Positions 239-17,714 of a DNA stretch of 17,984 nt are shown here, piece after piece. The notes beneath the pieces are model-generated. The model was not told the origin of the DNA, did not search any database, and saw only the letters and a list, made by a program, of their open reading frames with translations. How positions within the stretch are numbered: the first letter of the stretch is position 1; each line of letters opens with the position of its first letter. The position numbers and the translations under genes are program-made. This DNA comes from Myxococcota bacterium (lineage in GTDB: Bacteria; Myxococcota_C; UBA6777), in contig JAKLKB010000137.1 of the NCBI GenBank assembly GCA_023150835.1, positions 1 to 17,984 on the forward strand, in the 5' to 3' direction.

Positions 239-1312
239 CTATGCTTTTTGTTGACGGAGCCAGTCGTACCAAGCGGCCATGCCATCACCCGAGCGGGCAG
301 AGACTTGGAGGATGGCGGCGTCGGGTTGGATGGTGCGGATGGCGTCGAGTGCGCGGGGGAGATCGTAATCGAGGTAAGGCAAGAGGTCGATCTTGGTCAG
401 TAGGACGAGATCGGCGGAGCGGAAGATGTGGGGGTATTTGAGGGGTTTGTTTTCGCCTTCGGTGACGGACATCAAGACGATGCGCTTGTGTTCGCCGAGA
501 TCAAAGAGCGAGGGACAGACGAGGTTTCCGACATTTTCGATAAAGAGCAAGGTTTTGTCTTGGAGAGGGAGTTGGGGGAGGGCTGCCCAGATCATCTCGG
601 CTTCAAGATGGCAGCCTTTGCCTGTGTTGACTTGGATGGCGGGAGTTCCTGTTGCGCGGATCGATTCGGCATCCAAAGAAGTGGCTTGATCGCCCTCGAT
701 GACAGCGCAAGGTGCGCCGATCTCGCGCAAAGTACGTTCGAGCAAGCAAGTCTTCCCCGCCCCGGGCGAACTCATCAGATTCAGCGCAAACACACCCCGC
801 CCTGCAAAAAATCCCCGATTTCGCTCCGCGATCCGATCGTTTTTCTCCAGCACACGCTGCTCCAAAAGATGAAGGTCCAAAACCTCCGTCTCTGCGGCTT
901 TTGAGGCTTTGGGCGGATGCGGATGTTCGTGAGAGTGCGGATGTTCGTGGGAGTGCGGATGTTCGTGAGAGTGCGGATGTTCGTGGAAGTGCGGATGTTC
1001 GTGGGAGTGCGGATGTTCGTGGGAGTGCGGATGTTCGTGGGTATGCGGATGTTCGTGGGTATGCGGATGTTCGTGGGTATGCGGATGTTCGTGTTCGTGC
1101 GGATGTTCGTGGGAGTGCGGATGTTCGTGTTCGTACGGATGTTCGTGAGAGTGCGGATGTTCGTGTTCGTGCGGATGTTCGTGAGAGTGCGGATGTTCGT
1201 GTGTGTGTGTATGCGGATGTTCGTGTGTATGTGTATGGAGTGGGATGGATTGTCCATGTTGGTTGGAGAGGGTGGTGTTGTTTGTGTTGCCACATCCGCA
1301 AGTTATGCACAT
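239..1312 (-). CDS. hypB: HypB, nickel-binding GTPase for hydrogenase maturation
   Basis: HypB is the GTPase that, with HypA, loads nickel into the [NiFe]-hydrogenase large-subunit precursor in the cytoplasm. The protein (357 aa) starts MCITCGCG, the N-terminal CxxCxC nickel site known from E. coli HypB. Residues 26-132 are a histidine tract (53 His in 107 residues) built on the hexamer S/T/E-H-E-H-P-H. The G domain follows: Walker A SSPGAGKT (K187, T188), EGDQ (D208), the metal site C234-H235, a further cysteine C266 in NVGNLVCP, and the guanine-specificity TKID. The start overlaps the end of hypA by 10 bp, so the two are translationally coupled. His-rich tracts occur in other HypB proteins, where they store nickel; this one looks unusually long. 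It is the last gene of the cluster. Confidence 0.97.
   Translation of the reverse strand: MCITCGCGNTNNTTLSNQHGQSIPLHTHTHEHPHTHTHEHPHSHEHPHEHEHPHSHEHPYEHEHPHSHEHPHEHEHPHTHEHPHTHEHPHTHEHPHSHEHPHSHEHPHFHEHPHSHEHPHSHEHPHSHEHPHPPKASKAAETEVLDLHLLEQRVLEKNDRIAERNRGFFAGRGVFALNLMSSPGAGKTCLLERTLREIGAPCAVIEGDQATSLDAESIRATGTPAIQVNTGKGCHLEAEMIWAALPQLPLQDKTLLFIENVGNLVCPSLFDLGEHKRIVLMSVTEGENKPLKYPHIFRSADLVLLTKIDLLPYLDYDLPRALDAIRTIQPDAAILQVSARSGDGMAAWYDWLRQQKA
917..1237 (-). repeat. 18-bp coding minisatellite (HypB His tract)
   Basis: About 17 in-frame units of 18 bp (a few with small length differences) encode variants of xHEHPH in HypB residues 26-132. Near-identical neighbouring units suggest slippage or recombination, so copy number may vary between strains. 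The same repeat opens long false reading frames in other frames on both strands. Confidence 0.9.
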
Positions 1313-1644
1313 GGTTCGGTCTCCATTTCTTTGATCAGGAGCTCGTCACCGCTGAGGATGCGGAGGCGGGCTTTTTTTTCGCAAGGGCAAAGGGCAGAGA
1401 AGGAGGGAAGAGAAAGGATCTGATCGCAACCGAGGCATTGAGCGCGAGCGGGGAGGGTGTCGATGTGGAGGGTGGCTCCTTGTGCGAGGGTTCCGGCGGC
1501 GCAGGCATCGAAGCAGAAGCGGAGTGCGGAGATCTCGACGTTGGTGAGTGTGCCGACGTGGAGTCGGATAGAGCGGATGGTTTGGCCGTTGGCGTGTTGG
1601 AGTGCGACGCGGAGGATATCGCGAGTAAGGGAGAGTTCGTGCAT
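1303..1644 (-). CDS. hypA: HypA, hydrogenase nickel insertion metallochaperone
   Basis: HypA (113 aa) binds nickel at its N-terminus and works with HypB to insert nickel into the hydrogenase large subunit. The start MHELSLTRDIL contains the conserved MHE nickel motif (His2, Glu3). The C-terminal zinc domain begins with the normal CLGC pair, but the second pair reads C-P-C-E instead of C-P-x-C. Alignment to the usual C-P-x-C-x3-RLR-x-x-x-G-D/E-L pattern puts glutamate in the fourth ligand position and moves the cysteine one residue earlier. The ATG at 1644 overlaps the hypE stop by one base (TAATG), which fixes this start over the longer upstream extension. The tail LLIKEMETE matches the family. 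Confidence 0.95.
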   Translation of the reverse strand: MHELSLTRDILRVALQHANGQTIRSIRLHVGTLTNVEISALRFCFDACAAGTLAQGATLHIDTLPARAQCLGCDQILSLPSFSALCPCEKKARLRILSGDELLIKEMETEPCA

Positions 1645-2780
1645 TAGCAGATCCGAGGGAGTTGTTCGCCGACGAGCATGGCAAGGATGCGCTCGCCGCC
1701 GAAGCCATTTTGAAGGGTGACGATGCCTTTGGGTTCGGGGCGACAAGAGCCGATGATGGCGGCGTGTTGTCCGAGAGGATGGGCGCGCATGACGGCGAGA
1801 GCGGTTTGGGCTTGTTCGGCAGGGACGGCGAGAGCGAGTTTGCCTTCGTTGGCGAGGTGGATGGGATCGAAGCCAAGGATCTCACAGAAGCCTTGAACTT
1901 CGGGGCGGATGGGGATCTTTGTGGCGTCGATGGCGATGTGGAGGTTGGAGGCTTGAGCGATCTCGTTGAGGGTGGCGGCGAGTCCGCCGCGAGTGAGGTC
2001 GCGCATGGCGCGGGGAGTGATCTTGGCATCGAGTAAGGCTGCGATCAGTCCGTGGAGTGGGGCGCAGTCGCTTTCGATGGTGGTTTCGAGTTGAAGTTCG
2101 CCGCGTGCGATCAAGATCGCTGCGCCATGATCGCCGAGGTATCCGTTGATCAGGATGGCGTCGTTGGGTTGAAGTTGGTGGGCGGCGATCTGTTGAGAAG
2201 CGGGGATCACGCCGATGCCAGCGGTGGAGATGAAGATCTTGTCGGCGGCTCCGCGAGGGACGACTTTGGTATCGCCTGTGACGATCTGGACACCGGCTTG
2301 ACGGGCGGCTTGGCCCATACTGGCGAGGATCTCGCGCAAAGTGTCCATCGGAAGGCCCTCTTCGAGAATCAGGCTGCAAGAAAGGTAGAGTGGGCGTGCG
2401 CCCGACACAGCCAGATCGTTGATCGTGCCGTTGACTGCGAGTTTTCCGATATCACCGCCCGGGAAAAACAAGGGGCTGACAACGTAGCCGTCTGTTGTAA
2501 AGGCCAAGCGGTCGCCGTGGAGGGCCATCTCAGCAAGAGAAAAGCGGGCTTGGTCTTCTTGGATCTGGAGGTTGGGGTTGTCAAAGGCGCTACGGATCAC
2601 ATCGTCGATCAGGTCGCGCATGGCTTTTCCGCCGCCACCGTGGGCTTGGGTGATCACCGTGTCGCGCACACGCCCTGCGCGGCGACGGGCACCTTCGATG
2701 CGATCCCACAGTTGGGGAGAGGGATAGCGGGCCTCTGTGCTGTCGGGGACGGGCTGTCGGGTGGGCTTGGTGTCGGTCAT
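1644..2780 (-). CDS. hypE: HypE, carbamoyl dehydratase for cyanide ligand synthesis
   Basis: HypE takes the carbamoyl group from HypF on its C-terminal cysteine and dehydrates it with ATP to a thiocyanate, the source of the CN ligands. The protein (378 aa) has the PurM/AIR-synthase-like fold signatures AHGGGGKAM, TTDGYVVSP, GGDIGKLAVNGTINDLA and TGDTKVV. It ends PRIC, with the required terminal cysteine. About 45 residues precede the conserved AHGGGGK, so the N-terminus is somewhat longer than in many HypE proteins. Two adjacent ATGs (2783 and 2780) overlap the hypD stop. I chose 2780 because AGGAG then sits 5 bases upstream instead of 2. The gene is coupled to hypD upstream and to hypA downstream. 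Confidence 0.96.
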   Translation of the reverse strand: MTDTKPTRQPVPDSTEARYPSPQLWDRIEGARRRAGRVRDTVITQAHGGGGKAMRDLIDDVIRSAFDNPNLQIQEDQARFSLAEMALHGDRLAFTTDGYVVSPLFFPGGDIGKLAVNGTINDLAVSGARPLYLSCSLILEEGLPMDTLREILASMGQAARQAGVQIVTGDTKVVPRGAADKIFISTAGIGVIPASQQIAAHQLQPNDAILINGYLGDHGAAILIARGELQLETTIESDCAPLHGLIAALLDAKITPRAMRDLTRGGLAATLNEIAQASNLHIAIDATKIPIRPEVQGFCEILGFDPIHLANEGKLALAVPAEQAQTALAVMRAHPLGQHAAIIGSCRPEPKGIVTLQNGFGGERILAMLVGEQLPRIC

Positions 2781-3919
2781 CATCGCTCCTGCGGTAGGGT
2801 GCGTGTGGTTGCGAGGCGGCCATAGTTGTAATAAGCGGCGCAAGCGCCTTCGGAAGACACCATACAAGCGCCGATCGGGGTTTCGGGGGTGCAGGCGGTT
2901 CCAAAGACTTTGCACTGCCAAGGTTTGATCGCGCCTTTGAGGACTTCACCGCACTGACAGGCTTTGGGGTCGGGGACAGAGCGCGAAGGCAGCAAGAAGC
3001 GTTTTTCTGCGTCAAGATGAGCATATTCGGGGCGGATCTGTAGGCCGGAGTTGGGGATCGAGCCAAGGCCGCGCCATTCAAAGCATTCACGGGGCAAGAA
3101 GACTTTTTCGAGGGCTTGTTGGGCGATGCGGTTTCCGCTGTTTTGGACGACGCGCTTGTATTGATTTTCGACGGTACATCGGCCTGTTTGGAACTGTTCG
3201 AGCAGCATCACAAGGGATTGTAAGAGATCGAGGGGTTCAAAGCCGCTGATCACGATGGGCTTGTGGTGGGTCTCGCAAAGGGCGAGGTAGGGTTCGAGGC
3301 CGATTACCATTGTCACATGGCCGGGGCCGATGAATCCGTCGATTTGGAGGAGGGGATCATCGAGTAGTGCTTGAAGTGTCGGGATGATGGTGATGTGCGT
3401 GGAAAAGAGGAAGAAGTTGGAGAGACCTTCTTCGTGAGCTTGTAGGAGCGTTAACGCGGCGGAAGGAGCGGTGGTTTCAAAGCCGATACCAAAAAAGACG
3501 ACGTCGCGGTCGGGGGATTGGCGGGCGAGGGCGAGGGCGTCGCTTGGTGAGTAGACGGTGCGGATATCGGCTCCTTCGGCTTTGCATTGAAGGAGACTTT
3601 TTTGGGAACCCGGGACGCGGAGGGTGTCGCCGTATGTGGTAAAGATCACGTTGGGTTGTGTGGCGATGGCGATGGCGTCGTCGACACAGCCGACAGGAAG
3701 GACGCAGACAGGGCATCCCGGGCCGTGAACCATCTCGATCCCTTCGGGGAGCATGGACTCGATCCCGAACTTAAAGAGGGTGTGGGTATGGCCGCCGCAA
3801 ACTTCCATGATCTTGAGTGGGTGCTGTGCGTCTCGCCCCAATACACGGACTTGATGGGTGATCTGCTGTAAGAGTTGTTGGCCAGTTACTGGATCACGAA
3901 ATTCGTCAACGTATCTCAC
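2780..3919 (-). CDS. hypD: HypD, Fe-S scaffold for Fe(CN)2CO assembly
   Basis: HypD (379 aa) forms a complex with HypC that holds the iron while the CN and CO ligands are attached. Visible family motifs are EVCGGHTH, GPGCPVCVLP, GFETTAP, and a C-terminal cluster-binding region with cysteines in CQCGE, WQCKVFG, GACMVSSEGAC and the ending AYYNYGR. I chose the GTG at 3919 (VRYVDEFRDP): GGAGG lies 6 bases upstream, the resulting length matches the family, and the start overlaps hypC by 14 bp. The longer frame beginning at 3991 runs across hypC in another frame and its first 24 residues look unlike HypD. Confidence 0.96.
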   Translation of the reverse strand: MRYVDEFRDPVTGQQLLQQITHQVRVLGRDAQHPLKIMEVCGGHTHTLFKFGIESMLPEGIEMVHGPGCPVCVLPVGCVDDAIAIATQPNVIFTTYGDTLRVPGSQKSLLQCKAEGADIRTVYSPSDALALARQSPDRDVVFFGIGFETTAPSAALTLLQAHEEGLSNFFLFSTHITIIPTLQALLDDPLLQIDGFIGPGHVTMVIGLEPYLALCETHHKPIVISGFEPLDLLQSLVMLLEQFQTGRCTVENQYKRVVQNSGNRIAQQALEKVFLPRECFEWRGLGSIPNSGLQIRPEYAHLDAEKRFLLPSRSVPDPKACQCGEVLKGAIKPWQCKVFGTACTPETPIGACMVSSEGACAAYYNYGRLATTRTLPQER

Positions 3920-4214
3920 CCGTTCCCTCCGAAGTTTTGGTGTCTGTGGGTTCGATCGAGGCGATCTCTTTTTGGAGATCGCCCATCTCACGCAAGAGGT
4001 CGAGCGTTCGTTGAGCTTCTTGTGGATCGATGCGATTCATCGCGAAACCGACATGCACAAGCACCCACGCACCCACGCAAGTCCCGATGGCGTGGTCTTG
4101 ATCGACGATGCAGGCAAGATTTATAGTGCGACGAACGCCGCCGATCTCGACGATGCCGAGCTTGCGGGCGGTATCCGTCACTTGGATGATTTGTCCGGGG
4201 ATTCCTAAACACAT
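3906..4214 (-). CDS. hypC: HypC, hydrogenase maturation chaperone
   Basis: HypC (102 aa) carries the Fe(CN)2CO unit with HypD and holds the hydrogenase large-subunit precursor open for metal insertion. It begins MCLGIPGQI, with the essential Cys2, and has the conserved VGAWVLVHVGFAMNRID block. The last 25 or so residues are a polar tail beyond the conserved domain. A strong Shine-Dalgarno (GGAGGGA) precedes the ATG by 4-5 bases. It is the first gene of the coupled hypCDEAB run. The 104 bases separating it from the upstream lipoprotein gene probably hold the promoter, but I could not identify a convincing one. Confidence 0.96.
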   Translation of the reverse strand: MCLGIPGQIIQVTDTARKLGIVEIGGVRRTINLACIVDQDHAIGTCVGAWVLVHVGFAMNRIDPQEAQRTLDLLREMGDLQKEIASIEPTDTKTSEGTGEIR

Positions 4215-4781: not shown

Positions 4782-5195
4782 TCATGGACTGGGGTAGTTA
4801 GGGCAGACAAATTCCCTGTCCGTCCAAACTTTACAGCGTTTTTTTTCACAGATGGCTTTGGACGTGAAGGGGAGATCAAAAACGAAGCCTCTTTTGCCAT
4901 CGCAGTCTTTGGAAAAGTAGCGATCATGAAAGACTCGGAATTCTCTGTATTTTTTGGATGCCGCAAAGCCATCCACAAAACGGATAAATTCTCTGCGCTC
5001 GCATGTCCGTAGCATACCTTTGACAGCGAGAAGTTCGCAATCATCATTCTTTTCACAATCGTTGGGATGAGTTTCAACAAATTTTTGAAAAGCATCGTCG
5101 ATCTCTCCGCAAGGCATGAGCGCGATCTGTGCATCGAGACAAGACATCCCAAAAAAGCTCCAACACAAAAGCAAGACAAAGAAAAACCTTCTCAT
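4782..5195 (-). CDS. Cysteine-rich exported protein, paralogue 1 of 3
   Basis: An unrecognised 137-aa secreted protein. A hydrophobic signal (FFFVLLLCWSFFG) ends at Cys19 in GMSC. The glycine at -3 is atypical for a lipobox, so lipidation is uncertain. The mature part has 8 conserved cysteines in the pattern MxC, NDC, xDDC, xxC, KDC, AxC, KRC, FVC, which would allow four disulfides. The core HPNDCEKNDDCELLAVKG and DGFAASKKYREFRVFHDRYF are shared with the next two genes. This is the most diverged of the three copies. The 16 bases just before the ATG are the same as before paralogue 2, so the leader was duplicated with the gene. No metal-binding or catalytic motif is evident. Confidence 0.85.
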   Translation of the reverse strand: MRRFFFVLLLCWSFFGMSCLDAQIALMPCGEIDDAFQKFVETHPNDCEKNDDCELLAVKGMLRTCERREFIRFVDGFAASKKYREFRVFHDRYFSKDCDGKRGFVFDLPFTSKAICEKKRCKVWTDREFVCPNYPSP

Positions 5196-5222
5196 CAGGA
5201 GGCTCTTTCATTACGAAAAGGG

Positions 5223-5256
5223 AGCGGGCTCACGGGCCTTACCGAAGCAAGCCCGC
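5223..5256. other. Hairpin between paralogues 1 and 2
   Basis: The 7-bp stem GCGGGCT/AGCCCGC encloses a loop of about 20 bases in the 76-base gap between two of the cysteine-rich genes. There is no T-run on the minus strand after it, so an attenuator or partial stop is possible but unproven. Confidence 0.3.
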
Positions 5257-5271
5257 CTCTTCAGGGGTGGG

Positions 5272-5679
5272 TCATGGCATGTGAGGGCAGACAAATTCGT
5301 CATTTGTTTGAACTTTGCAACGTTTGTTGTAGCATACGGCTTGAGAGGTTAATGGACGATCAAAGGCGTGAGCCCTTTTGCCGTCGCAGTCTTTGGAAAA
5401 ATAGCGATCATGAAACAGTCTAAATTCATTGTATTTCTTGGATGCAGCAAATCCATCTGCATAACCGAGAAATTCATGTTCATTACATCGATTAAACTCT
5501 CCTTTCACCGCGAGAAGTTCGCAATCATCATCTTTTTCGCAATCATTTGGGTGATTTTCAGCAAATTTTCGAAAAGCTTCATGGAGTTCAGGACACGACA
5601 TCAACGCAATTTGCGTGTCAAGACAAGAAATTCCCAAAAAGCTCCAGCACAAAAGCAAGACAAAGAAAATATTTCTCAT
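5272..5679 (-). CDS. Cysteine-rich exported protein, paralogue 2 of 3
   Basis: This 135-aa protein has the same design as its neighbours: signal peptide to Cys19 (LGISC), then ALMSCPELHEAFRKFAENHP, NDCEKDDDCELLAVKG and eight spaced cysteines, ending FVCPHMP. It is nearly identical to paralogue 3 over most of the mature protein, and the DNA is also very similar, so this duplication is recent. The differences cluster around NRCNEHEF versus NQCERREF and AHAFDRPLTSQ versus LNFDGPFTSQ. The start lies 12 bases after the paralogue 3 stop, so the two are cotranscribed. No strong Shine-Dalgarno is seen, only AAAGAG. Function unknown. Confidence 0.88.
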   Translation of the reverse strand: MRNIFFVLLLCWSFLGISCLDTQIALMSCPELHEAFRKFAENHPNDCEKDDDCELLAVKGEFNRCNEHEFLGYADGFAASKKYNEFRLFHDRYFSKDCDGKRAHAFDRPLTSQAVCYNKRCKVQTNDEFVCPHMP

Positions 5680-5691
5680 CAGGAGGCTCTT

Positions 5692-6099
5692 TCATGGCAT
5701 GTGAGGGCAGACAAATTCGTCATTTCTTTGGACTTTGCAACGTTTGTTGTAGCAAACGGCTTGAGAGGTGAATGGGCCATCAAAATTGAGAGCCCTTTTG
5801 CCGTCGCAGTCTTTGGAAAAATAGCGATCATGAAACAATCTAAATTCATTGTATTTCTTGGACGCAGCGAATCCATCTGCATAGCCGAGAAATTCTCTAC
5901 GTTCACATTGATTAAGCTCTCCTTTCACCGCAAGAAGTTCGCAATCATCATCTTTTTCGCAGTCATTCGGGTGATTTTCAGCAAATTTTCGAAAAGCTTC
6001 GCCGAGTTCAGGACACGACATCAACGCGATCTGCACGCCGATGCAAGACGTCCCAAAAAAGCTCCAACACAAAAATAATGCAAAATAAGTCTTTTTCAT
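5692..6099 (-). CDS. Cysteine-rich exported protein, paralogue 3 of 3
   Basis: The first gene of the tandem triplet (135 aa). I chose the ATG at 6099 (MKKTYFALFLCW) over the longer frame from 6171 because GGGAGA precedes it at good spacing and a signal peptide begins at once. The signal ends at Cys19 (FGTSC). The mature protein carries the triplet's eight-cysteine pattern with HPNDCEKDDDCELLAVKG and DGFAASKKYNEFRLFHDRYF. It starts 29 bases after the end of the frameshifted exported-protein gene, so all four may share a transcript. Paralogy suggests dosage or variation of a surface or periplasmic protein. The biochemical role is unknown. Confidence 0.87.
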   Translation of the reverse strand: MKKTYFALFLCWSFFGTSCIGVQIALMSCPELGEAFRKFAENHPNDCEKDDDCELLAVKGELNQCERREFLGYADGFAASKKYNEFRLFHDRYFSKDCDGKRALNFDGPFTSQAVCYNKRCKVQRNDEFVCPHMP

Positions 6100-6128
6100 G
6101 ATCTTCTCCCTTTCTTTCCTAGCCTTGC

Positions 6129-7144
6129 TTATCGACAAGGCCACTGTTCTGTATTGAGCAATTTTCGGCAAAGATGTTTTTCCATCACCTCGAAATCATT
6201 GCCACCTCGAAGCCCGTACACCGTACCCGATGGTGTGGGGGTGGAGACACTGTATGTCCCGTCCGCAAAGGGTAGGAATTGGATGGAGGAAGAAAAATCT
6301 CCGACTGCGGGGATCTGGAGCGTTGTGGAAGGTGGGGTGAGTACGGCCAAGCCTTTGGTGGCGGCGGTTTCAGGGTCTTCAAAAAAGGCGTTGGAAACAA
6401 CGTGATCGGACGGCCAATTGTAGCGGATCGACCATCTTTGGAAAATGGCAGGGGGGGCGTTTGGTGGGCTGCTTGGATGCAGATCTGCAGTTGTCAACGC
6501 GGACTTTGAAAGGAAAGCGATGGAGCGTTGTGTGTCTCCGTTTCTTTTCGTCACGGTGGCGATCAAATGCCCCGTGTTGGGGGAGATCTCGTTGCCATTT
6601 GTCCAACGTGGGGAGTGAAAGACAATGGCGGGCTTGTTAAGCGTTTTGATCGATCCATCGGCGTCTTCGATGAATTCCCATCGTAAGTCTGCTCCGATAG
6701 TGGCGAGGCACCAAAAGCTAACATCCGCTGTCGAGAGTATGTCTGCGCGCGTCGAAGAAAGAAGCATATATGTTTTTCCCTCGTTGTTAGTCGCGAGATG
6801 GGGAATGTTGACAAGGCTCGGACTAAAGGATGTTGCGGGTGCCTCTGGAACGTTTGCTTTGTAGCGGGGAAGAGGTCGTATATGTAGACTACGGTATCGG
6901 GCGCATGGGAAGGATTGGTTGCCACCAAGTTGTGTGTGCGCAGGGCGTATGTACCCGGGCCTTTTTCTCCAAAGTCGTATGTGAAAATGCCGGTGGTTTG
7001 GATATTTTTCAGCACATGATCGGCTGCGGATGCTTTGGCTCCCCACCCAAGAAACAACCCCGCTGTGGCGAAAAGATCGCAGAAGACAGTTTCGCTCTTT
7101 GTTGGCTGTGAAAAAAAACTATCTTTTTGTTCAGTTTTTTTCAT
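6129..7144 (-). pseudogene. Exported protein of unknown function, frameshifted
   Basis: Two overlapping frames together form one protein of about 338 aa. The upstream frame (from the ATG at 7144) has a signal peptide ending ASA|AD near residue 40 and runs to VVYIYDLFP (residue 93). The downstream frame continues sensibly as RYKANVPEAPATSFSPSLVN and runs to the stop at 6129. The switch fits loss of one C in a run of four (plus-strand GGGG at 6866-6869): with five C the frame reads DLFP-RYKANVP. Beyond that point the upstream frame turns unconvincing, and before it the downstream frame is arginine- and histidine-rich noise. It may be a true broken gene or a homopolymer sequencing error. The many short strand-like segments (ATVTKRNGD, GTYSVSTPTPSG) suggest a beta-rich exported protein. 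AAGG precedes the ATG. No family recognised. Confidence 0.75.
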
Positions 7145-7783: not shown

Positions 7784-10276
7784 TTACAAATCATGTCGAT
7801 TTGCGTTTGTGCAGTGGGTGGCGGAAAGCAGCCTTGCAGCAGCGATTACGGCTTGTCCAAGGGAGATGCCGCCGTCGTGGGTGGGGACGTGTTGGTGGAG
7901 AAGGACGGACAACCCTTGTTTGTGTAGGGTATTGCGGACGTGTTGGAGCAGGAGAGGATTTTGCCAGACGCCGCCCGAAAGCGCGACGGTATCGAATGGG
8001 TAGAGTGAGCGGATCTGAGCTGTAAGCGTTGTGATGGCGTGTGCTAGGGAAAGATGGAAGCGTGCGGCGATCTCGCTTTTGGGTCGGGCGTTTTGGATGT
8101 CAGCAAGCAAGGTGGGCCACATGGGACGGGGAGAAAGGATTCGTGTGGGGTCTGGTGCGTCGTGGAGGATGGCGAAGGGATAAAGCGTTGGGTTGCGCTC
8201 GGAAAGAAGGGGATCGGAGGAAGCGAGGGAAGCGAGGACGATAGCGGCTTGGGCTTCTTCTTCGATGGATGCGGGGAAGATGTCGAGGGCTGCGGCGACG
8301 GCATCGAACCAGCGGCCACAAGAGGAGGTGGGGGGCGCAAGATCGGGGCGTTGGAGCATCAAGCCGAGCAGCCCATGTGGGCGATGAGAAAGCAGACGCA
8401 GCGGATCGAGCGAGCCGAATTGGGCCAACCAAGCCTCCAGCGGTTGTTGTGTGAGCAGGTGCGCGTAAAGATTGCGCCAAGGTTGACGGGCGGCGAGATC
8501 ACCGCCGAGCAGCGGGAAAGATTCAAAAGCCGCGACACGTCGAAAAGATCCGTAGTCGGCGAGCAAGAATTCACCACCCCAAAGCTCTCCATCGGGGCCA
8601 TAACCAAGGCCATCGAGTGCGATCCCCAACAGCGGTGGTGCGTGGAGTGGGCGTTGGTGTTCGGCCATACAAGCGGCGATGTGGGCGTGGTGGTGTTGGA
8701 TGCGATGTATCGGGAGGTTGTGTTCTTCGGCGAGTGTGTGTCCGTGTTGTGTGGCGGTGTATTGAGGGTGGGCATCGACGGCGATCACGGCGGGGGAATG
8801 ATCGAAAAGCGTGGTGATCTCGTGTAAGCCTTCTTTCCATGCAGCAAAAGTCGCGTACTGATCGAGATCGCCGAGGTGTGGGGAAAGCAGGGCTTTTCCG
8901 CCTTGGAGCATACAGAAGGTGGCTTTGAACTGACCGCCGAGGGCAAGGATGGGCGGTGCGTTGGTGAATTCAGGCGGCAGAGAGAGCGGTTGGGGTGCGT
9001 AGCCGCGAGCGCGTCGGATCAGGCGAGGGGTTCCTTGATCGATCCATGCGACGGAGTCGTCGATCTGATGGGCGATGGGTCGGTCGTGAGAGAGGATCGC
9101 GTCGGCGATATCCGCCAAGCGTTCGAGGGCATCGTCATCATGGATACAGGGTGGATCGTGGCTGCGGTTGCCGCTGGTGCAGACAAGAGGACGATCGAAT
9201 GGAGCGATCAAAAGCTGATGTAGCGGTGTGGTGGGCAACATGATGCCGATGTCGCGCTGGTAAGGGGCGACGAGTGGTGAGAGCGTGGTGGAGGGCTTGG
9301 CAGGCAACAGGACGATCGGAGCGGCAGGATGGGTCAAAAGTGAATGTGCAGCATCTTCTACTTGCGCAAAGGCCGATGCGACGGAGAGATCACGCACCAT
9401 CAGAGCAAAAGGCTTGAACATCCGCTGTTTTCGTTGGCGGAGTCGCAACACGGCGGACTCTTGAGTGGCATCGCAACAAAGGTGATATCCGCCTAAGCCT
9501 TTAACAGCGAGGATTCCTCCCGAGGCAAGAAGTTGATGGGCTGCTTGCAAGACTTCGGCGTCGGTGGTGGGGGCTGCCTCGAACGTCTTATAAAAGGGCA
9601 TCTGTTTTTGCTGGGCATCGGTTTCGGTGGTGGGGGTGGTTTCGCAGAGCGGAAGGGAGGGCGTCTGTTTTCGCGGGACATCGGCGTCGGTGGGAGAGAG
9701 GGCACGGAAGCGAAGGTGTGGGCCGCATCGTGGGCAAGCGATGGGCTGAGCGTGAAAACGGCGGTCGTTGGGGTCTTCGTATTCAGTGCGGCAAGCCGGA
9801 CACAACGGAAAGGCCGTCATGGTGGTGCGTGGTCGATCATAAGGCATGGATTGGACAATGGAGTAGCGGGGGCCGCAATGCGTACAGCTTGCGAAAGCAT
9901 AACCAAAGCGGCGGTCGTTGGGGTCGGATATCTCTCGAAGGCAAGCTTGACAGATCGCTGCATCAGGCGGGATGGTGGTTTGCAAAGGCCCGCTTTGACT
10001 GGGGCGGATGGTGAAGGTGGCGGTCTCTTCGGGGGAAAGGGTGATCGGGGTGCGTTGGATGTGTTCGATCTTTGCGATGAGTGGTAATTTTTCGCGCAGC
10101 GCCTCAATAAAAGCGGTGGATTGGTCGGTGGATGCGGCAAGATGGATCGTGACACCTGCGGGGCCATTGAGTACCCATCCACCAAGGCCCATCTCTTGGG
10201 CAAGACGCGCAACGGTGGGGCGAAACCCGACGCCTTGCACAGTTCCTTGGATCTGAATCCGTTCTCCAGAAAACAT
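7784..10276 (-). CDS. hypF: HypF, carbamoyltransferase for hydrogenase cyanide ligands
   Basis: HypF converts carbamoyl phosphate, through carbamoyl adenylate, to a carbamoyl group handed to HypE's terminal cysteine. Domains run in the standard order. An acylphosphatase domain covers about 1-92, with GTVQGVGFRP and the catalytic Arg19. Four zinc-finger cysteine pairs follow (C109/C112, C131/C134, C159/C162, C181/C184). A YrdC-like domain comes next (about 241-430, LAVKGLGGYHLCCDA), then a Kae1-like domain with HHHAH. At 830 aa it is longer than many HypF proteins (about 750-780). Part of the excess is a Thr/Pro/Gln-rich insert at about 191-236, between the zinc fingers and YrdC. AGGAG lies 8 bases before the ATG. 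It is on the same strand as hypCDEAB but 3.6 kb away. Confidence 0.97.
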   Translation of the reverse strand: MFSGERIQIQGTVQGVGFRPTVARLAQEMGLGGWVLNGPAGVTIHLAASTDQSTAFIEALREKLPLIAKIEHIQRTPITLSPEETATFTIRPSQSGPLQTTIPPDAAICQACLREISDPNDRRFGYAFASCTHCGPRYSIVQSMPYDRPRTTMTAFPLCPACRTEYEDPNDRRFHAQPIACPRCGPHLRFRALSPTDADVPRKQTPSLPLCETTPTTETDAQQKQMPFYKTFEAAPTTDAEVLQAAHQLLASGGILAVKGLGGYHLCCDATQESAVLRLRQRKQRMFKPFALMVRDLSVASAFAQVEDAAHSLLTHPAAPIVLLPAKPSTTLSPLVAPYQRDIGIMLPTTPLHQLLIAPFDRPLVCTSGNRSHDPPCIHDDDALERLADIADAILSHDRPIAHQIDDSVAWIDQGTPRLIRRARGYAPQPLSLPPEFTNAPPILALGGQFKATFCMLQGGKALLSPHLGDLDQYATFAAWKEGLHEITTLFDHSPAVIAVDAHPQYTATQHGHTLAEEHNLPIHRIQHHHAHIAACMAEHQRPLHAPPLLGIALDGLGYGPDGELWGGEFLLADYGSFRRVAAFESFPLLGGDLAARQPWRNLYAHLLTQQPLEAWLAQFGSLDPLRLLSHRPHGLLGLMLQRPDLAPPTSSCGRWFDAVAAALDIFPASIEEEAQAAIVLASLASSDPLLSERNPTLYPFAILHDAPDPTRILSPRPMWPTLLADIQNARPKSEIAARFHLSLAHAITTLTAQIRSLYPFDTVALSGGVWQNPLLLQHVRNTLHKQGLSVLLHQHVPTHDGGISLGQAVIAAARLLSATHCTNANRHDL

Positions 10277-10500: not shown

Positions 10501-10743
10501 TTAGTCCTGCGCTTGGGGTGGGACGGAGAGTTTTTTGCGCAGGAGAAGGAGTCCCCAACCAAAGAAGAAGATGGGAAAGGCCGCGTGCATCAGCAGATCC
10601 AAGACATCCATCGGTTGAAAGGTGGTCCAAAATCGATAGTTGGAGTGTGTGAGATAGGCCCACAACATCCCCAGTTTTTGCCAAAGATGTGGGTGAAATA
10701 AAGAGAGGATGCCGAGTAGGAAAGGAAAGAGGATCTTGAGCAT
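10501..10743 (-). CDS. Small membrane protein with two helices, unknown function
   Basis: An 80-aa protein with two hydrophobic segments (about residues 3-17, ILFPFLLGILSLF; and 50-66, HAAFPIFFFGWGLLLL) flanked by an aromatic loop (YRFWTTFQPMDVLD) and a basic C-terminal tail (LLRKKLS). Its composition is clearly membrane-protein-like, unlike the other two minus-strand frames. The start is uncertain: no good Shine-Dalgarno precedes the ATG at 10743, and a GTG at 10764 would add 7 residues. Further upstream the frame becomes arginine-rich and implausible. It lies 61 bases downstream of the proposed selenoprotein, so the two may form a small operon ahead of hypF. I do not recognise the family. 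Confidence 0.6.
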   Translation of the reverse strand: MLKILFPFLLGILSLFHPHLWQKLGMLWAYLTHSNYRFWTTFQPMDVLDLLMHAAFPIFFFGWGLLLLRKKLSVPPQAQD

Positions 10744-10804: not shown

Positions 10805-10984
10805 CTACGTCGAAGGGGATGAGCCTTGTTTGGGCGGATCATCCGAGGATTTGGGATTGTTTTTATTGTTCTCCGCCGGAGAACAGGCACCGCGCATTCA
10901 GGTGGAAACGCCCATCTTGGGCAAGATCCACAACTGCAACGCAAAGTAGATCGCAAGGAAGACAAAGAGGCCCCATGAATCCAT
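10805..10984 (-). CDS. Candidate selenoprotein, small membrane-anchored, internal UGA
   Basis: The ATG at 10984 has AAGGAG 10 bases upstream and opens a frame of 28 codons. These encode one transmembrane helix (WGLFVFLAIYFALQLWIL, residues 4-21) and then LPKMGVST, followed by TGA at 10900-10898. The same frame continues past the TGA as MRGAC and a hydrophilic, Ser/Pro/Asn/Lys-rich tail to TAG at 10807-10805, giving 59 residues if UGA is read as selenocysteine. The motif would be T-U-M-R-G-A-C, a U-x4-C pair of redox type facing away from the helix. A hairpin 20 nt after the UGA fits a bacterial SECIS. The alternative is an ordinary 28-aa membrane micropeptide ending at TGA. What I see is the frame, the helix and the hairpin; selenocysteine is inference. 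A competing 106-aa frame (11183-10863) overlaps it. Confidence 0.6.
10867..10885 (-). promoter_or_regulatory. SECIS-like hairpin downstream of in-frame UGA
   Basis: In the transcript UGUUCUCC pairs perfectly with GGAGAACA (8 bp) around the loop GGC. Twenty nucleotides separate the UGA (10900-10898) from the first loop base, which is G. The known bacterial SECIS rule is a stem-loop starting soon after the UGA, with a G among the first two loop bases about 16-37 nt away. This matches, although the loop is at the short end. Because the DNA is a palindrome, a protein-binding site is the alternative. Confidence 0.5.
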
Positions 10985-11164
10985 CGGTTTGCAACTCCTT
11001 GGGTGCGCTTTGTGAGAAGGCTTCTTCTACGCGCCCGATGCAGCGGAAAAAAGCCTCGACTGGGTTGCACCCATCGGCTGTAGAGCCAACGAATGCAAAG
11101 AAAGGTGCAATGTGCTGCTTTGTCTTCTTGCATAGGATTGATCGGGTGGTGCTGGTGTTGTGGA
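10985..11164 (-). other. Leader region of candidate selenoprotein
   Basis: This is 180 bases between the candidate selenoprotein start and the dispersed repeat. It contains the AAGGAG ribosome site (about 11000-10995) and probably the promoter, though no clear -35/-10 pair was found. A minus-strand frame (11183-10863) reads through it with a moderately protein-like middle (IAPFFAFVGSTADGCNPVEA) but has a repeat-derived N-terminus and collides with the selenoprotein frame. I do not call it a gene. Confidence 0.4.
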
Positions 11165-11242: not shown

Positions 11243-11359
11243 GTGGGGTTGGAACCCCACGCCCCGCAAGGGGTCTTGGCCCCCTTGACCCCGTATCGGC
11301 GAGAAGATCGCAGGTTTTTCAAACTCACAGCGGCGTCGCTTGAAGTGCTGCGAACACGG
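11243..11359 (-). repeat. Dispersed 117-bp repeat, copy B (inverted)
   Basis: On the minus strand this starts CCGTGTTCGCAGCACTTCAA, contains GCCGATACGGGGTCAAGGGG and ends GTGGGGTTCCAACCCCAC. It has the same length and order of blocks as copy A. It opens a false plus-strand extension on the kinase frame: the first 39 codons from 11243 are repeat DNA. Confidence 0.8.
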
Positions 11360-11405
11360 GATTTTTGTCTACCGCATTCGTCCGATCTGAAGGCCCTTTT
11401 GTCGC

Positions 11406-11422
11406 AAGGAGCGTCTTTCGTG
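11406..11422 (+). promoter_or_regulatory. Ribosome binding site and GTG start of first kinase
   Basis: AAGGAG (11406-11411) is followed by 8 bases and GTG at 11420, in frame with the kinase. This site decides the start, since the longer frame from 11243 is repeat-derived. Confidence 0.6.
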
Positions 11423-13729
11423 TATGAACAAAAACAACAGTCTCTGCTGCATCCGCGTTTTGCACCCATCGGGCGAGAGGACGCACACCCTGAACTTTCA
11501 GAGAAAAAGGCTGAATCGAAAGACACGGACAAGCCTGCATCCGTAGCCACCGAGGCCAACGAGAGAAGCCAAGCAAAGGAAACAGCCGAAACATCTCAAA
11601 CAGCCGAAACAGCCGAAGTGCAGGATCTTTCCGGGATGGGTCTTTCGCAAGAGGACACGTTGATGTTTGCAAATCGGTTGGTTCGATCGCTGATGCGGCC
11701 CAAAAAAACACAACCACCGCCCGAAAAGACCGACACTACCGCGATGATCTTGGCACCCAAAAAGCCCGATGCAGCGGCGATGATCTTGGCACCCAAAAAG
11801 CCCGATGCAGCGGCGATGATCTTGGCATCCGAAACGCCCGATGCCACAGGCACAATCACCTCATATCAAACGCCCGATGCCACAGGTACAATCACTTCAT
11901 ATCAAACGCCCGATGCCACAGGTACAATCACTTCATATCAAAAGCCTGATGCAGCGGGAATCATCGCCGCGCCTGAAAAGCCCGATGCAACGGGCGTGAT
12001 CGTCTCGCCTGAAAAGGCTGATGTCACGGGTGTTGCGGTACGATCCGAATCCATCCACGAGCGAGGGGGCTTGATTGGAGAAGAGCCTGAAGGCGCAACG
12101 GTCGAGATGTCGAGCTTTTTGGCCTCGATCAAGGACGGCGAGTCGATCTCTTCGGGGGATCTTCCGATCATGTCGATGTATGCGACGCTTCCCGAAGAAC
12201 AGCGCAGAAAGCGACTGTCTTCGGGCGAACTTCCTGTGGTGTCGAGGTACGCAGCACGTTCGGAAAAACAAGCAAACCACGCCCACGAAAAGCCCACCAA
12301 CCATCCAACTGAGGCCGATGATGCGGCCTCTTCTGCTTCGTCGTCTGCGGCTTTTTCTGTTTCGTCGGCTGCGGCCTCTTCTGTTTCGTCGTACGCACCT
12401 GTTCACGAAGCGGAGCCTACGTTGATCGCGCAAGAGAAAGCGAATGTGGGGATCGAGGTGGATGTGCTTGCTGCGGATACTCCTGAGCTTGCGGTGTGGG
12501 ACGATGATGCGCCAGAGACGGTGCTTTTGAAGACTTTTCCCCCCGCGACTGCGACGCAGTCCGAGATGGAAGTGGTGGTTGTACCTACATCTGCGCCTGC
12601 ATCTGCGCCTGTACCGATGAGCGTACCTACGATGGCGTCTGCGCCTGCACCGATGAGCGCGCCGATAGCGGCATCTGCGCCTACACCGATGAGCGTACCT
12701 ACGATGGCATCTGCGCCTACACCGATGAGCGTACCTACGATGGCGTCTGCGCCTGCACCGATGAGCGCGCCGATAGCGGCATCTGCGGCTGTACCTGCGA
12801 AAAAGAAACGAGCGATCGTTTTGGCAGAGCGGTATGCGTTGTTGGAGAAGATCGGGGAAGGGGCAACGGGTGAAGTGTTTCGTGTGCATGATATGGAAGT
12901 GGGGGATATCATCGCGTTGAAGCTGTTGTCGATCGCGCACAGCCGCAAGCGGGATAGTTTGGAGCGTTTTCGTCGGGAAGTGCGGCTGGCTCGGCGTATT
13001 ACGCATCGCCACATTGCGCGGATCTTTGATATGGGCAAGTTAGGGGAGCGCTATTATTTGACGATGGAGTTGATCCAAGGCCGTTCTTTGGACAGGTTGA
13101 TCGCTTCGGAGGCGTTGTCTTTTGGGCGGGTTTGTGCGTTATTGCGACCGATCTGTGAGGGTTTGCAAGCGGCGCACGAAGCGGGGGTGATCCATCGGGA
13201 TCTCAAGCCGGAAAATATCTTGATCGAACAAAAGGGCCGTGTGGTGATCACGGACTTTGGGATTGCGCGGCAAACGGCGGGGGAAGAGGTCTTTAAGACG
13301 TTGGATGGGAGTGTGATGGGAACGCCCGCGTATATGGCTCCAGAGCAGATCAAAGCAGGAAGTGTGGTGGATCAGCGAGCGGATATCTTTGCGTTGGGGG
13401 CGATCTTGTATGAGATGTTGACGGGAAAGCCTGTTGCAAAGGGGGGGAACTTGATGGAAGTGTTGATGTCGAGGATCCAGTCGCCGCCGCCTGACCCGCG
13501 TGATATCCGCCCCGATATCCCCGCGAACTTGGCGGATTTAGCGCGGGATTGCATGGCACTTGACCCCAACGAGCGCCCGCAGGATATGAGCGTGATGTTG
13601 GTTCGTTTGGCGCAGATCCGAGGGGCGCTTGAGCAAGAAGACACGCCTCGGCCAACAGCCCGATTGAAGGGCTTTGCAGAAGGGATGTTGTCGCTGCTTG
13701 GTTCCAAAAAGGGCAACGTCACGCCCTAA
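11420..13729 (+). CDS. Hanks-type Ser/Thr kinase with repetitive N-terminal region
   Basis: This 769-aa protein is a PknB-type kinase with the catalytic domain at its C-terminus (about 471-745). Key residues are the glycine loop GEGATGEV, Lys501 (ALK), HRDLKPEN with Asp594, DFG at Asp612 and APE at 640-642, so it should be active. No transmembrane helix is seen, so it is probably cytoplasmic. The first 470 residues are low complexity. Nine 12-residue units (103-210) of the type KPDAAAMILAPK or TPDATGTITSYQ are followed by two SSG(D/E)LPxxSxYA boxes, an Ala/Ser-rich stretch, and five 12-residue SAPxPMSxPxxA units (395-454). This layout suggests a flexible arm with many Thr/Ser sites for autophosphorylation or partner docking (inference). 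I chose GTG 11420 for its AAGGAG and to avoid repeat B. A second kinase follows, pointing the same way. Confidence 0.93.
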   Translation: MYEQKQQSLLHPRFAPIGREDAHPELSEKKAESKDTDKPASVATEANERSQAKETAETSQTAETAEVQDLSGMGLSQEDTLMFANRLVRSLMRPKKTQPPPEKTDTTAMILAPKKPDAAAMILAPKKPDAAAMILASETPDATGTITSYQTPDATGTITSYQTPDATGTITSYQKPDAAGIIAAPEKPDATGVIVSPEKADVTGVAVRSESIHERGGLIGEEPEGATVEMSSFLASIKDGESISSGDLPIMSMYATLPEEQRRKRLSSGELPVVSRYAARSEKQANHAHEKPTNHPTEADDAASSASSSAAFSVSSAAASSVSSYAPVHEAEPTLIAQEKANVGIEVDVLAADTPELAVWDDDAPETVLLKTFPPATATQSEMEVVVVPTSAPASAPVPMSVPTMASAPAPMSAPIAASAPTPMSVPTMASAPTPMSVPTMASAPAPMSAPIAASAAVPAKKKRAIVLAERYALLEKIGEGATGEVFRVHDMEVGDIIALKLLSIAHSRKRDSLERFRREVRLARRITHRHIARIFDMGKLGERYYLTMELIQGRSLDRLIASEALSFGRVCALLRPICEGLQAAHEAGVIHRDLKPENILIEQKGRVVITDFGIARQTAGEEVFKTLDGSVMGTPAYMAPEQIKAGSVVDQRADIFALGAILYEMLTGKPVAKGGNLMEVLMSRIQSPPPDPRDIRPDIPANLADLARDCMALDPNERPQDMSVMLVRLAQIRGALEQEDTPRPTARLKGFAEGMLSLLGSKKGNVTP
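11726..12049 (+). repeat. Nine 36-bp coding repeats in kinase 1
   Basis: The repeats encode 12-residue units. The middle three (TPDATGTITSYQ) are identical in protein and nearly so in DNA, and units 2 and 3 are nearly identical, so the array has expanded recently in blocks. Confidence 0.92.
12602..12781 (+). repeat. Five 36-bp coding repeats in kinase 1
   Basis: The array encodes 12-residue SAPxPMSxPxxA units just before the kinase domain. Units alternate between a VPTMA and an API AA ending, pointing to duplication of a two-unit block. It probably forms an extended proline-rich linker. Confidence 0.9.
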
Positions 13730-13764: not shown

Positions 13765-13881
13765 ATTGATGTTGCGGATGAGATGGGCTGCTGCTTCGAT
13801 AGCACCAAAGCTCTTGTGGAGCGTATGTAGCGCGAAGCGTGGGTTGTGGCGAAAGCTCTTCTTTAGAGCAGTGCGATGGAT

Positions 13882-13898
13882 GGAGGAGCGAGGCATTG
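13882..13898 (+). promoter_or_regulatory. Ribosome binding site and TTG start of second kinase
   Basis: GGAGGAG (13882-13888) lies 7 bases before TTG at 13896, in frame with the kinase. It is far stronger than anything before the upstream GTG at 13839, which would add 19 unconvincing residues. Confidence 0.65.
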
Positions 13899-16800
13899 AA
13901 CGAGCAGGACGTAACGAACAAGACTTCATTGACCCAAGAGACTTTGTTGTTTCGAGGGGATGCGCCTGTCGAACAAGGAGAGAAGTTCTCGGGAACGCCA
14001 GCGTCTCCGACGGGGGAACTGGTGCGCGTGGGCCAGCTTACGTTGGAGGCGGGGCAAGCGTTGTTCGATGATTGGCCGCGTTATACCTTTCACGGCGTGC
14101 TTGGAAAAGGCGGATCCGGGCTTGTTTTCCGTGTGTTTGACGAGATGCTGCGGCGGGTGGTGGCGTTAAAATTTCTTCAGCGTTGCGATCCGCGTCGGTT
14201 GGAGCGTTTGTTGTGGGAAGCCCAAGCGCAAGCGCGAGCGGATCATCCGAACATCTGCAAGGTGTACGAAGTCGGGACGTTTCAGGGCTATCCGTATATC
14301 TCGATGCAGTACATCAAAGGGGAAAGTTTAGAGAAAGCCAGCGTGAAGATGTCGTTGCTGCAAAAGGTCGCGGTATTTCGTGCTTTGGCGGATGCGCTTC
14401 ATGCGGCCCATCGGCAAGGCTTGTTGCATCGGGATATCAAGCCTTCGAACATCTTGGTTCGGGAAGAGGAAGGGGGCCGTTGGCAGCCGTATATCTTGGA
14501 CTTTGGGATCGCGCATGAGTTCAGTCGGGAGGGGGCCAAGGAAGGGGCTTCTTGGGTGGGGACACCATTGTATATGTCTCCCGAGCAGATCGCGGGGGAT
14601 GCCGCACATCTGGACCGTCCGACCGATGTGTACGGGCTGGGCGTAGCGTTTTATGAGTGCTTGGTGGGGCAGCCGCCTTTTCGTGGAGAAGGCAGAGCGT
14701 TGTTTGAAAAGATCTTACAAGAAAAGCCCCCATCCTTGGCGCGTTTGGGGATTCCACGCGATCTGGCGGCGATTGTTCACAAGTGCCTCGCCAAACATCC
14801 AAGCAATCGCTATGCGTCGATGGCGGATCTGTCGGCGGATCTGGCGTGCTTTGCGGAAGGATCGCCTGTGACGGCGCGGACGGGCCTGTTTTATCGTTGG
14901 GGGAGACAGGTCTATCGCCATCGCTGGATGGTGTCTGTGGCGGTGCTGGTGGTGTTTGCGTTAAGCGTTGGATTGTTTCAGGCTTGGCAGCGTCGCGTAG
15001 AGCGTTTTCGGGCTGTGCAAGAGCGGCAGCGTCAACAACAAGCTGCGCATCTGCGGGCGCAACAGGTGCGTTATTGGACGCTTTCTTTTCAAGAGCGCAC
15101 CCAAAAGATCGCTTCGTTGATGCGGTTGTCTGCGATGTTGCCGCTGCATGATACGACCCCTGAGCGAAACAAGGCGTTGCGACTGCTCGAAGCTCTGGAG
15201 CGGGATACAAAAAAAACAGATGATATCTTGCGTGGTTATGCGCATCATCGGGTGGGCATGGCGTATCTTCGTTTGGGTCAGCGCAAAGAAGCGCGCAAGC
15301 ATCTGCGGCTTGCGTGGTCGATGGGCGAAAAGAGCGCGGGGCCGATGTTGGCTTTGTTGGGTTGGGAGAGCCAGTGGATCAAAACCACGCAGATCGGAAA
15401 AAGGTTGAAGGGCTCGAAACTACCGCGCTATCTGCGTTATCTGAACCCTCTACAACGAGGAAAGGAAGCGGAGAAAGGCGGGTATGATCCAGCAGAGATC
15501 GCCGTGTTGGAGTCGATGCGGCTGCTTGGCAAAGATCAATGGCCTCGCGCATTGGAGGTTTTACAAAAGGGTTTTGTCGAATATCCGTGGATGTACGAGT
15601 TATTGCGGCTGCAAGCGCACATCCATTGGAGCCGTGTGGTCTGGCAACTGCGGCGTGTGAGAGCCACACAGAAACAACGCGGTGAAAAAGCGCTCCTGCA
15701 AGCGGAGCAACATTACCGTTTGGCGGTCGGACTTTTAGAGCGTGCGTTGCAGATCGCCCCAAGTGAAGCGGGGTTGTATGAGTCGCTGTGCTTTGCGTAC
15801 GCGGTGTACACGAGAATTACCGAAGGGAGCGCACAAGCCGATCAAAGCGTGATCGGGAAAGGGATCGCGTCTTGTGAACACGCGCTGGTGGCGAGACCCG
15901 ACACACGGCTTGCTCACTTGTTGCTGTCTTTGCTGTACAGCGCCCAAGGGCGGCAGGCGTTTGAACAGCAGAAACCCAACATACAGTGGCTCAATCGCGC
16001 CCTTGCCTCCAGTCGTAAGGCGTTGTCTCTGTACCCAAATGACGGGGCATTGTTGTTGGAGAGCGCACGCATCCGCACGGCTTTTGCGGAAGAGGCGATG
16101 TGGCGTGGTGGACCACCACGCGGTCATTGTCGAGCTTCTGTATCGTTCTATGAGCGGGCCTTTCGGCTCGATCCCATCGTCAGTATCGAGCCTTATCTGC
16201 ATGGGATGTGGTTGTGCGCGTTTCACCAAGTCCGACACCACCGCGATCCGCGATTCTATCTTGATCGAGGCAAACAATTGATCGCCGAGTTGCGCCGAAT
16301 CCAAGCCACAAACAGCGGCACGCGGCTTTTGCTTCCCGAGGGATATCTCACGCTATTCGAGGGGCTAAGTCTCTACACACAGGGCTTGTTTGAGGCACAA
16401 CAGCAACGTTCTCCGCTTCCGTGGTTTTCTCGTGCATTCGAAAAACTCTCGAAGGTATCGAGCAAAAGTGTGGATGGCTTTGAGCAGCTTGTGATGGGAT
16501 TCGTTGTGATGGGCTTGTTGGAGTGGTCGAAACAAGCATCACCCGCACAAGCGACGCGCTGGTTGACGCTTCTTGGAAAGCAGATGGTTGGGTTGCGCTC
16601 TCGTTCGGCTTCTGCGCCTTGGGCGTATTATCTGGAAGGCCGCTCTGCGCTGTTGGTGGCGCGACGCATCGAACACGATCCACAAAGGCGCCTCAAAAAG
16701 CTCCAAGAAGCGGAGTCTCTTTTGTCCGCAAGCATCCGAAGAAAAACGGACTTTTTTGACGCACACGCGGCTTTGCTCGAAGTCTCTCTGACCACAGCCC

Positions 16801-17714
16801 AGACCCCCATCCCTGCGCAAAAAGAGCCGGTGATCTTGGACGAGCACGTCGGGGCCGAAGATATCCCGCTCTCCGACGGAACTCAGAGAGAAAAAACAGG
16901 CACGCCCCCAAACGACAAGGATCAAACACAGCCCACCCCAACCGCTTCACCTCGGCGAGGCGACGAACCAACTGCTTCACCCCGACGAGATGGCGAACCC
17001 CCCGCCCCACCCGTCGCTCCAGAAGCCACAAACAAAAACAGAATACGAGGCCAAACCAGCAGCACCAAGCAAAAACCGAAGGATCGAACGGTCAAGTTAA
17101 AAGGTCTGCAAAGCCTTCGGACAGGCAGCGCATGGGGATATGGTCAACGACAACCACCACATCTCGAAATGTTGCGTGCTTTGTTTGAAAAAATCGCAAA
17201 AGCAGGTCGCAAGAAAGAAACACAAGAACAGGCTTTGTTTCTTGGGCGGCAGGTCCACCCAACGCAGATCCTTCGGTTGATCCAACGCGCAGAAAAGATC
17301 CGCTCTTTTCCTCACAGCCCACAGCGCACAAGATTGCTTGCGGAAGTTGAACAAACCTTGCGGCGCACGTACGCTTTACAACAAATCGCACGTAGCGCCG
17401 CTTCACCACCTACGGTACAGAGGGGCGCTGCACCCGGTACCGCACGAAAAGCCGCTGTACCGCCCATCGTACAGAGGCTCGCTGCGCCTCGCAATCTACA
17501 AAAAGCCGTTGTTTTACCCACCATAAGGCCAAGATCCCAAACAACGACACCACCCCAAAGGCCGACCTCTCTGCCCGTCGGAGTGATTCGCCCCACCTCT
17601 CGGCCTATTGCTCGTCCGATCTATCAACTCGTCAGGGAGATCCGTCCGACCTCTCGGCCTGTTCGTGCTGATCGTCCGACTTCTCGATCCTTACGGCACA
17701 AGCCCACTCCATAG
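13896..17714 (+). CDS. Membrane-anchored Ser/Thr kinase with TPR-like region
   Basis: A 1272-aa protein with an N-terminal PknB-type kinase domain: glycine loop GKGGSG, Lys92, HRDIKPSN with Asp180, DFG at Asp202 and SPE at 228-230, so all catalytic residues are present. One transmembrane helix (about 344-364) is followed by a basic, Gln-rich coiled-coil segment (365-393). A long alpha-helical region with TPR-like repeats then runs to about residue 970 (for example AHHRVGMAYLRLGQRKEARK, ALQIAPSEAGLYESLCFAYA, ALSLYPNDGALLLESARI). The last 300 residues are low complexity: TASPRR boxes, a short helical block, APxxxQK units and four RPTSxP/S boxes. This kinase-TM-TPR plan is common in myxobacteria. 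The C-terminal part would lie in the periplasm if the kinase is cytoplasmic, which suggests sensing by protein contact (inference). It lies 166 bases after kinase 1. Confidence 0.93.
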   Translation: MNEQDVTNKTSLTQETLLFRGDAPVEQGEKFSGTPASPTGELVRVGQLTLEAGQALFDDWPRYTFHGVLGKGGSGLVFRVFDEMLRRVVALKFLQRCDPRRLERLLWEAQAQARADHPNICKVYEVGTFQGYPYISMQYIKGESLEKASVKMSLLQKVAVFRALADALHAAHRQGLLHRDIKPSNILVREEEGGRWQPYILDFGIAHEFSREGAKEGASWVGTPLYMSPEQIAGDAAHLDRPTDVYGLGVAFYECLVGQPPFRGEGRALFEKILQEKPPSLARLGIPRDLAAIVHKCLAKHPSNRYASMADLSADLACFAEGSPVTARTGLFYRWGRQVYRHRWMVSVAVLVVFALSVGLFQAWQRRVERFRAVQERQRQQQAAHLRAQQVRYWTLSFQERTQKIASLMRLSAMLPLHDTTPERNKALRLLEALERDTKKTDDILRGYAHHRVGMAYLRLGQRKEARKHLRLAWSMGEKSAGPMLALLGWESQWIKTTQIGKRLKGSKLPRYLRYLNPLQRGKEAEKGGYDPAEIAVLESMRLLGKDQWPRALEVLQKGFVEYPWMYELLRLQAHIHWSRVVWQLRRVRATQKQRGEKALLQAEQHYRLAVGLLERALQIAPSEAGLYESLCFAYAVYTRITEGSAQADQSVIGKGIASCEHALVARPDTRLAHLLLSLLYSAQGRQAFEQQKPNIQWLNRALASSRKALSLYPNDGALLLESARIRTAFAEEAMWRGGPPRGHCRASVSFYERAFRLDPIVSIEPYLHGMWLCAFHQVRHHRDPRFYLDRGKQLIAELRRIQATNSGTRLLLPEGYLTLFEGLSLYTQGLFEAQQQRSPLPWFSRAFEKLSKVSSKSVDGFEQLVMGFVVMGLLEWSKQASPAQATRWLTLLGKQMVGLRSRSASAPWAYYLEGRSALLVARRIEHDPQRRLKKLQEAESLLSASIRRKTDFFDAHAALLEVSLTTAQTPIPAQKEPVILDEHVGAEDIPLSDGTQREKTGTPPNDKDQTQPTPTASPRRGDEPTASPRRDGEPPAPPVAPEATNKNRIRGQTSSTKQKPKDRTVKLKGLQSLRTGSAWGYGQRQPPHLEMLRALFEKIAKAGRKKETQEQALFLGRQVHPTQILRLIQRAEKIRSFPHSPQRTRLLAEVEQTLRRTYALQQIARSAASPPTVQRGAAPGTARKAAVPPIVQRLAAPRNLQKAVVLPTIRPRSQTTTPPQRPTSLPVGVIRPTSRPIARPIYQLVREIRPTSRPVRADRPTSRSLRHKPTP

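Follow-up and report, generated by a model that had tools for sequence, protein, structure and literature searches.

The window, a 17,984-nucleotide stretch of a Myxococcota contig (JAKLKB010000137.1, assembly GCA_023150835.1), carries a hypB-hypA-hypE-hypD-hypC cluster and hypF (239–4214 and 7784–10276, minus strand), and close to the N terminus of its HypB runs a long nickel-storage-type repeat rich in His (HEHPHSHEHP). Three tandem paralogous ORFs for small Cys-rich, secreted- or lipoprotein-like proteins (137, 135 and 159 aa) lie at 4782–6171 on the minus strand; the two of the three that were scanned had no Pfam match. On the plus strand, two large tandem kinase-like proteins are encoded at 11243–13729 and 13839–17714; the first was confirmed by the Pfam Pkinase model and, ahead of its kinase domain, contains long tandem repeats of the Ala/Pro/Ser-rich and PDA types. 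The subject of this analysis is a short frame on the minus strand, running from an ATG at 10984 to a TAG stop at 10805 and interrupted by a single UGA, with 28 codons ahead of the UGA and 30 past it. The features of the locus are as follows.

10995–11000, minus strand: Shine-Dalgarno-like AAGGAG, 10 nt upstream of the ATG, recognised from sequence
10805–10984, minus strand: predicted selenoprotein gene, 59 codons including one UGA read as Sec; one TGA in each of five own-phylum genomes
10925–10981, minus strand: single membrane helix, residues 2–20, predicted by AlphaFold2 with the family alignment
10898–10900, minus strand: in-frame UGA, predicted selenocysteine 29; shared by nearly all homologues and replaced by a Cys codon in nine Planctomycetota homologues of Sec-lacking genomes
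10883–10900, minus strand: U-M-R-G-A-C, redox-type motif (UxxxxC); Cys at +5 in 77 of the 82 Sec forms examined
10867–10885, minus strand: bacterial SECIS-type hairpin UGUUCUCC(GGC)GGAGAACA, nucleotides 16–34 counted from the U of the UGA
10501–10743, minus strand: second small hydrophobic ORF (80 aa), lying downstream; the sister genome (L009) alone shares it

Translated with the UGA as U, the frame reads MDSWGLFVFLAIYFALQLWILPKMGVST-U-MRGACSPAENNKNNPKSSDDPPKQGSSPST. The first-pass annotation had proposed a small membrane selenoprotein here, and its account of the AAGGAG, the helix, the U-x4-C spacing and the 30 codons past the UGA stands; what it left out is the strand, which is the minus one. 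The plus-strand reading of 10805–10984 was tried and rejected, as it gives unrelated peptides. Gene finders miss the 59-residue protein because the UGA interrupts its gene, and annotation cuts it there into two pieces, both below the length at which genes are called. The frame by itself is unconvincing, since a mechanical count (ATG 25–60 codons upstream of the UGA, at least 25 codons downstream, Cys within 7) gave five comparable UGA-interrupted frames in the window; its significance comes from homology. The UGA could be an ordinary stop, at the end of a hydrophobic peptide of 28 residues or outside any gene, with the downstream frame open by chance. Such chance frames occur, as the count demonstrates, and short helices are common. 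The distribution and conservation of the homologues bear directly on this alternative.

Scanning genome contigs with the read-through protein initially identified 20 loci, in Myxococcota, Desulfobacterota-type deltaproteobacteria, Planctomycetota, KSB1 and Melainabacteria. The UGA occupied the identical site in the context xWILPKxGxxT-U-[MLV] at all of them (20/20), and each of the 18 genomes concerned had exactly one gene with one TGA. Within the phylum of the window the gene was present in 5/5 genomes examined. Larger samples gave 165 carriers among 395 Desulfobacterota genomes (~40%), nearly all with one TGA, and matches in 40 of 392 Planctomycetota genomes, of which 38 were convincing (~10%). 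No relative was found on viral contigs or on plasmids. A common motif, [W][IV]LP[KR]xG[VI]xT-U-[ML]SxxC, runs through the homologues; among ~90 members P at –7 and G at –4 never vary, 97% keep T at –1 and 93% keep Cys at +5. The first-pass annotation would have had the homologues end at this stop if the UGA were not read through; conservation instead continues past it, above all at the Cys. Compared with the sister species, the differences past the UGA are distributed over codon positions as 2/0/5. Four Desulfobacterota matches that stop short of the UGA site (L076–L079) turned out, on reading, to have the UGA displaced by one residue, to carry it in variant motifs or to contain two UGAs. L077 and L079 have two in-frame UGAs, in PSUGAP right after the helix and in PTUDGP[TS]C near the C terminus (~residues 27–70), and may be double-selenocysteine members in which the UxxxxC motif is displaced.

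We asked how the state of the UGA site relates to the selenocysteine machinery. The genome of the window encodes SelB (G000:C113), SelA (C204) and a tRNA-Sec with anticodon TCA (C24), so that the machinery whose absence would have counted against the first-pass annotation is in place. Among the homologues the in-frame UGA is either conserved or aligned with Cys, both of the states that had been predicted. Nine full Planctomycetota matches have no stop, a Cys codon replacing the UGA (TCMSGAC, TCLSGLC, TCLSGFC, TCLSGMC, TCMSGGC, TCLFQCC, TCMSCSTSC). SelB and SelA were detected in 0/9 of these Cys-form genomes, and a SelB search repeated with looser limits gave just elongation-factor matches under the cut-off. 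In contrast, among 27 full UGA-form Planctomycetota SelB was found in 24 genomes and SelA in the remaining three. For SelB alone, Cys versus UGA forms, the Fisher test gave p = 2e-6, with an effective number of Cys forms below nine because some are close relatives, including one cluster. SelB was present in 157 of the 165 Desulfobacterota carriers; seven of the eight carriers without a full SelB had SelA, and the eighth had SelB-like pieces on several contigs. This co-occurrence says little, since SelB is nearly universal there (353 of 395 sampled genomes overall), and Planctomycetota were therefore used for the test.

A SECIS-type hairpin with G in its apical loop lies just past the UGA. In most Sec forms the loop centre is 17–30 nt (mean 25) from the U of the UGA, usually with a G in the loop. 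Hairpin strength relative to synonymous shuffles had a mean z of +1.99 (SE 0.12) over 81 Sec forms, the sequences not being independent, and a mean z of –0.03 in the Cys forms (n = 9), which lack the hairpin. Ten distinct sequences form a class in the same register; every one of their pair cells held a standard pair (60/60), and five of the six pairs had changes on both sides. The covariation score was 0.907, compared with 0.348 ± 0.065 for shuffled alignments (0/500 as high) and no more than 0.40 with the partner slid. The signal is family-wide: the hairpin of the window, measured against dinucleotide shuffles, is unexceptional alone (z –0.5). Rfam SECIS_1 (RF00031) gave zero matches here and likewise in every control genome, so that its silence carries no weight.

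These results argue strongly against an ordinary stop. A motif kept across the UGA in several phyla, Cys-codon homologues that read straight through, a Sec/Cys state tied to selA/selB and covariation in the SECIS-type hairpin leave that alternative very improbable. The read-through might otherwise serve as a selenium-responsive leader that controls a downstream gene, the peptide itself being functionless. The brevity of the frame, its recoding hairpin and the nearness of other genes would suit such a leader, but the downstream genes vary while the peptide residues are conserved, and Cys versions persist where Sec recoding is impossible; we consider it highly unlikely. We conclude from the comparative evidence that the UGA is read as Sec and that the protein is a selenoprotein, with a probability of about 0.97.

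AlphaFold2 predicts one confident helix, residues 2–20 (mean pLDDT of residues 1–20 ~85), followed by low confidence. The mean charge is ~–0.4 in the first residues and ~+2.2 from the helix end into the tail. By the positive-inside rule, the positive charge C-terminal of the helix would place the Sec- and Cys-bearing tail on the cytoplasmic side, which suggests an N-out/C-in topology with Sec29 and Cys34 cytoplasmic, ~ten residues from the membrane. With the UxxxxC pair, the product is very probably a Sec-decoded membrane protein of redox type.

Gene neighbourhoods were examined at 81 loci. No constant partner gene was found among them, and neighbours vary widely between lineages. The 80-aa ORF downstream in the window, which has no family match, is a possible partner. 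The absence of a constant partner bears on the proposal that the protein belongs to a membrane enzyme complex as a small subunit similar to CydX, with a structural or assembly role, and that its Sec and Cys bind a metal or haem instead of forming a mobile redox pair. The size of the protein and its one helix agree with this proposal, and c-type cytochromes, NrfD or Hyp genes adjoin some members (the window, L010, L126, L133 and L134; NrfD at L134). However, a dedicated subunit would be expected to keep its partner, and the tail is of low confidence and apparently unstructured, which together make such a subunit unlikely.

Recurrent neighbours point to thiol and sulfane-sulfur redox. The Cys forms have an MBL-rhodanese gene upstream and an SQR-like flavoprotein gene downstream. 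At L157, L161–L165 and L171 (Planctomycetota) we observed an operon-like array of a TauE/SafE-like permease, MBL-rhodanese, the selenoprotein-family gene and the SQR-like flavoprotein; the full array belongs to Cys-form relatives, with part also in a Sec-form genome, the permease being identified from sequence only. The same MBL-rhodanese adjoins L171, the Sec form of another planctomycete. Thioredoxin adjoins L011 and L118, a thioredoxin-reductase-like protein L017, a rhodanese-YgaP protein L170, YgaP-type membrane proteins L156 and L158, and DUF302 L010, L011 and L169; ArsR-type regulators adjoin several loci. The carrier at L017, Geothermobacter hydrogeniphilus, is in culture. None of these neighbour families recurred among 79 farther genes of the same loci, a control that is imperfectly matched. 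The link to sulfur comes from a subset of loci, because neighbours vary and those in the window are hydrogenase maturation genes.

The same neighbourhoods could be read as those of a membrane-surface antioxidant that reduces peroxides or repairs lipids, a role suggested for membrane selenoproteins of eukaryotes, and that is not tied to sulfane sulfur in particular. Sec lends itself well to the reduction of peroxides, and genes of the AhpC/TSA family, for carboxymuconolactone decarboxylase (AhpD-type), thioredoxin and CcdA/TlpA-like proteins lie near in several lineages. Nevertheless, the closest operon-like associations are with sulfide-oxidation genes, and Desulfobacterota, many of them presumably anaerobes, make up most of the carriers sampled. 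An antioxidant role of this kind is thus rather unlikely, if less so than a CydX-like subunit. A role in sulfane-sulfur and thioredoxin chemistry, the reading we prefer for the neighbourhoods, is put forward tentatively.

In the mechanism we propose, SelB and Sec-tRNA would decode the UGA, directed by the adjacent downstream hairpin with its G-rich apical loop, and ribosomes would produce the 59-residue protein rather than stop at 28. The N-terminal helix would anchor the protein in the inner membrane. The selenolate could then attack a membrane-side disulfide, persulfide or polysulfide, Cys34 would resolve the intermediate as a selenosulfide, and thioredoxin may re-reduce the Sec29/Cys34 pair; some organisms without Sec machinery would perform the same chemistry with Cys. 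The family might in this way act as a general sulfane-sulfur or thiol relay that works at the cytoplasmic side of the inner membrane and shuttles electrons or sulfur between thioredoxin and quinone-linked sulfide oxidation, lineages that lack Sec machinery using Cys versions; we regard this as possible, at somewhat less than even odds.

The family apparently is uncatalogued and widespread. No NCBIfam or Pfam model scored above its cut-off for the Sec forms, nor any NCBIfam model for the Cys forms, and a resemblance to Pfam YMF19 (E 0.14; best 0.098 among members) was rejected as a chance membrane-helix match. A profile search of the PDB returned nothing meaningful (best E 1.1). A 2026 inventory covering 119 families of prokaryotic selenoproteins (PMC13188914) has, in the parts examined, including most rows of its Table 1, neither the string UxxxxC nor a small single-helix protein. 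As text, the family motif is absent from 5.39 million open papers, a corpus that places subscription literature outside its scope and leaves priority uncertain. The authors of deep-Sep state that their method may miss selenoproteins without Cys homologues (PMC12013277); in the present family such homologues are uncommon and were encountered in no more than a few planctomycetes. Selenoproteome catalogues overlook very small membrane members, and this family would rank among the more widespread bacterial selenoproteins. A minimal membrane selenoprotein of 50–60 residues with natural Cys counterparts suits the question of why Sec is used, and the family is a testable candidate for membrane sulfur redox traffic.

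Among known systems, the eukaryotic SelK and SelS have a tiny single-helix membrane anchor with Sec in a flexible tail thought to be cytosolic. Their Sec sits close to the C terminus, in a different context, and is inserted by the eukaryotic system; the likeness to the bacterial family is in architecture only, and no homology is expected. The bacterial selenoproteins TsoA (LULAxC, NF045695) and TsoB (UxxxxU, NF045694), which PMC13188914 lists, resemble it in a spacing other than CxxU and in the ArsR-type regulator (TsoR) modelled there, ArsR-type neighbours occurring at some loci here. They differ in that the present family has no NCBIfam match, TsoB is a rhodanese/DsbD fusion, and the scores of the ArsR neighbours fall far short of the cut-off for TsoR. 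For the selenoprotein subtype of Type III sulfide:quinone reductase (NF049943), the relative is the SQR-like neighbour of the Cys forms (262.7 bits against a curated cut-off of 525 bits), not the selenoprotein itself. YgaP-like membrane domains and membrane rhodaneses (PF11127, PF00581), small inner-membrane sulfur-relay proteins, are similar in kind and are neighbours of L156, L158 and L170; the selenoprotein family does not match PF11127 and has instead one helix and the UxxxxC motif.
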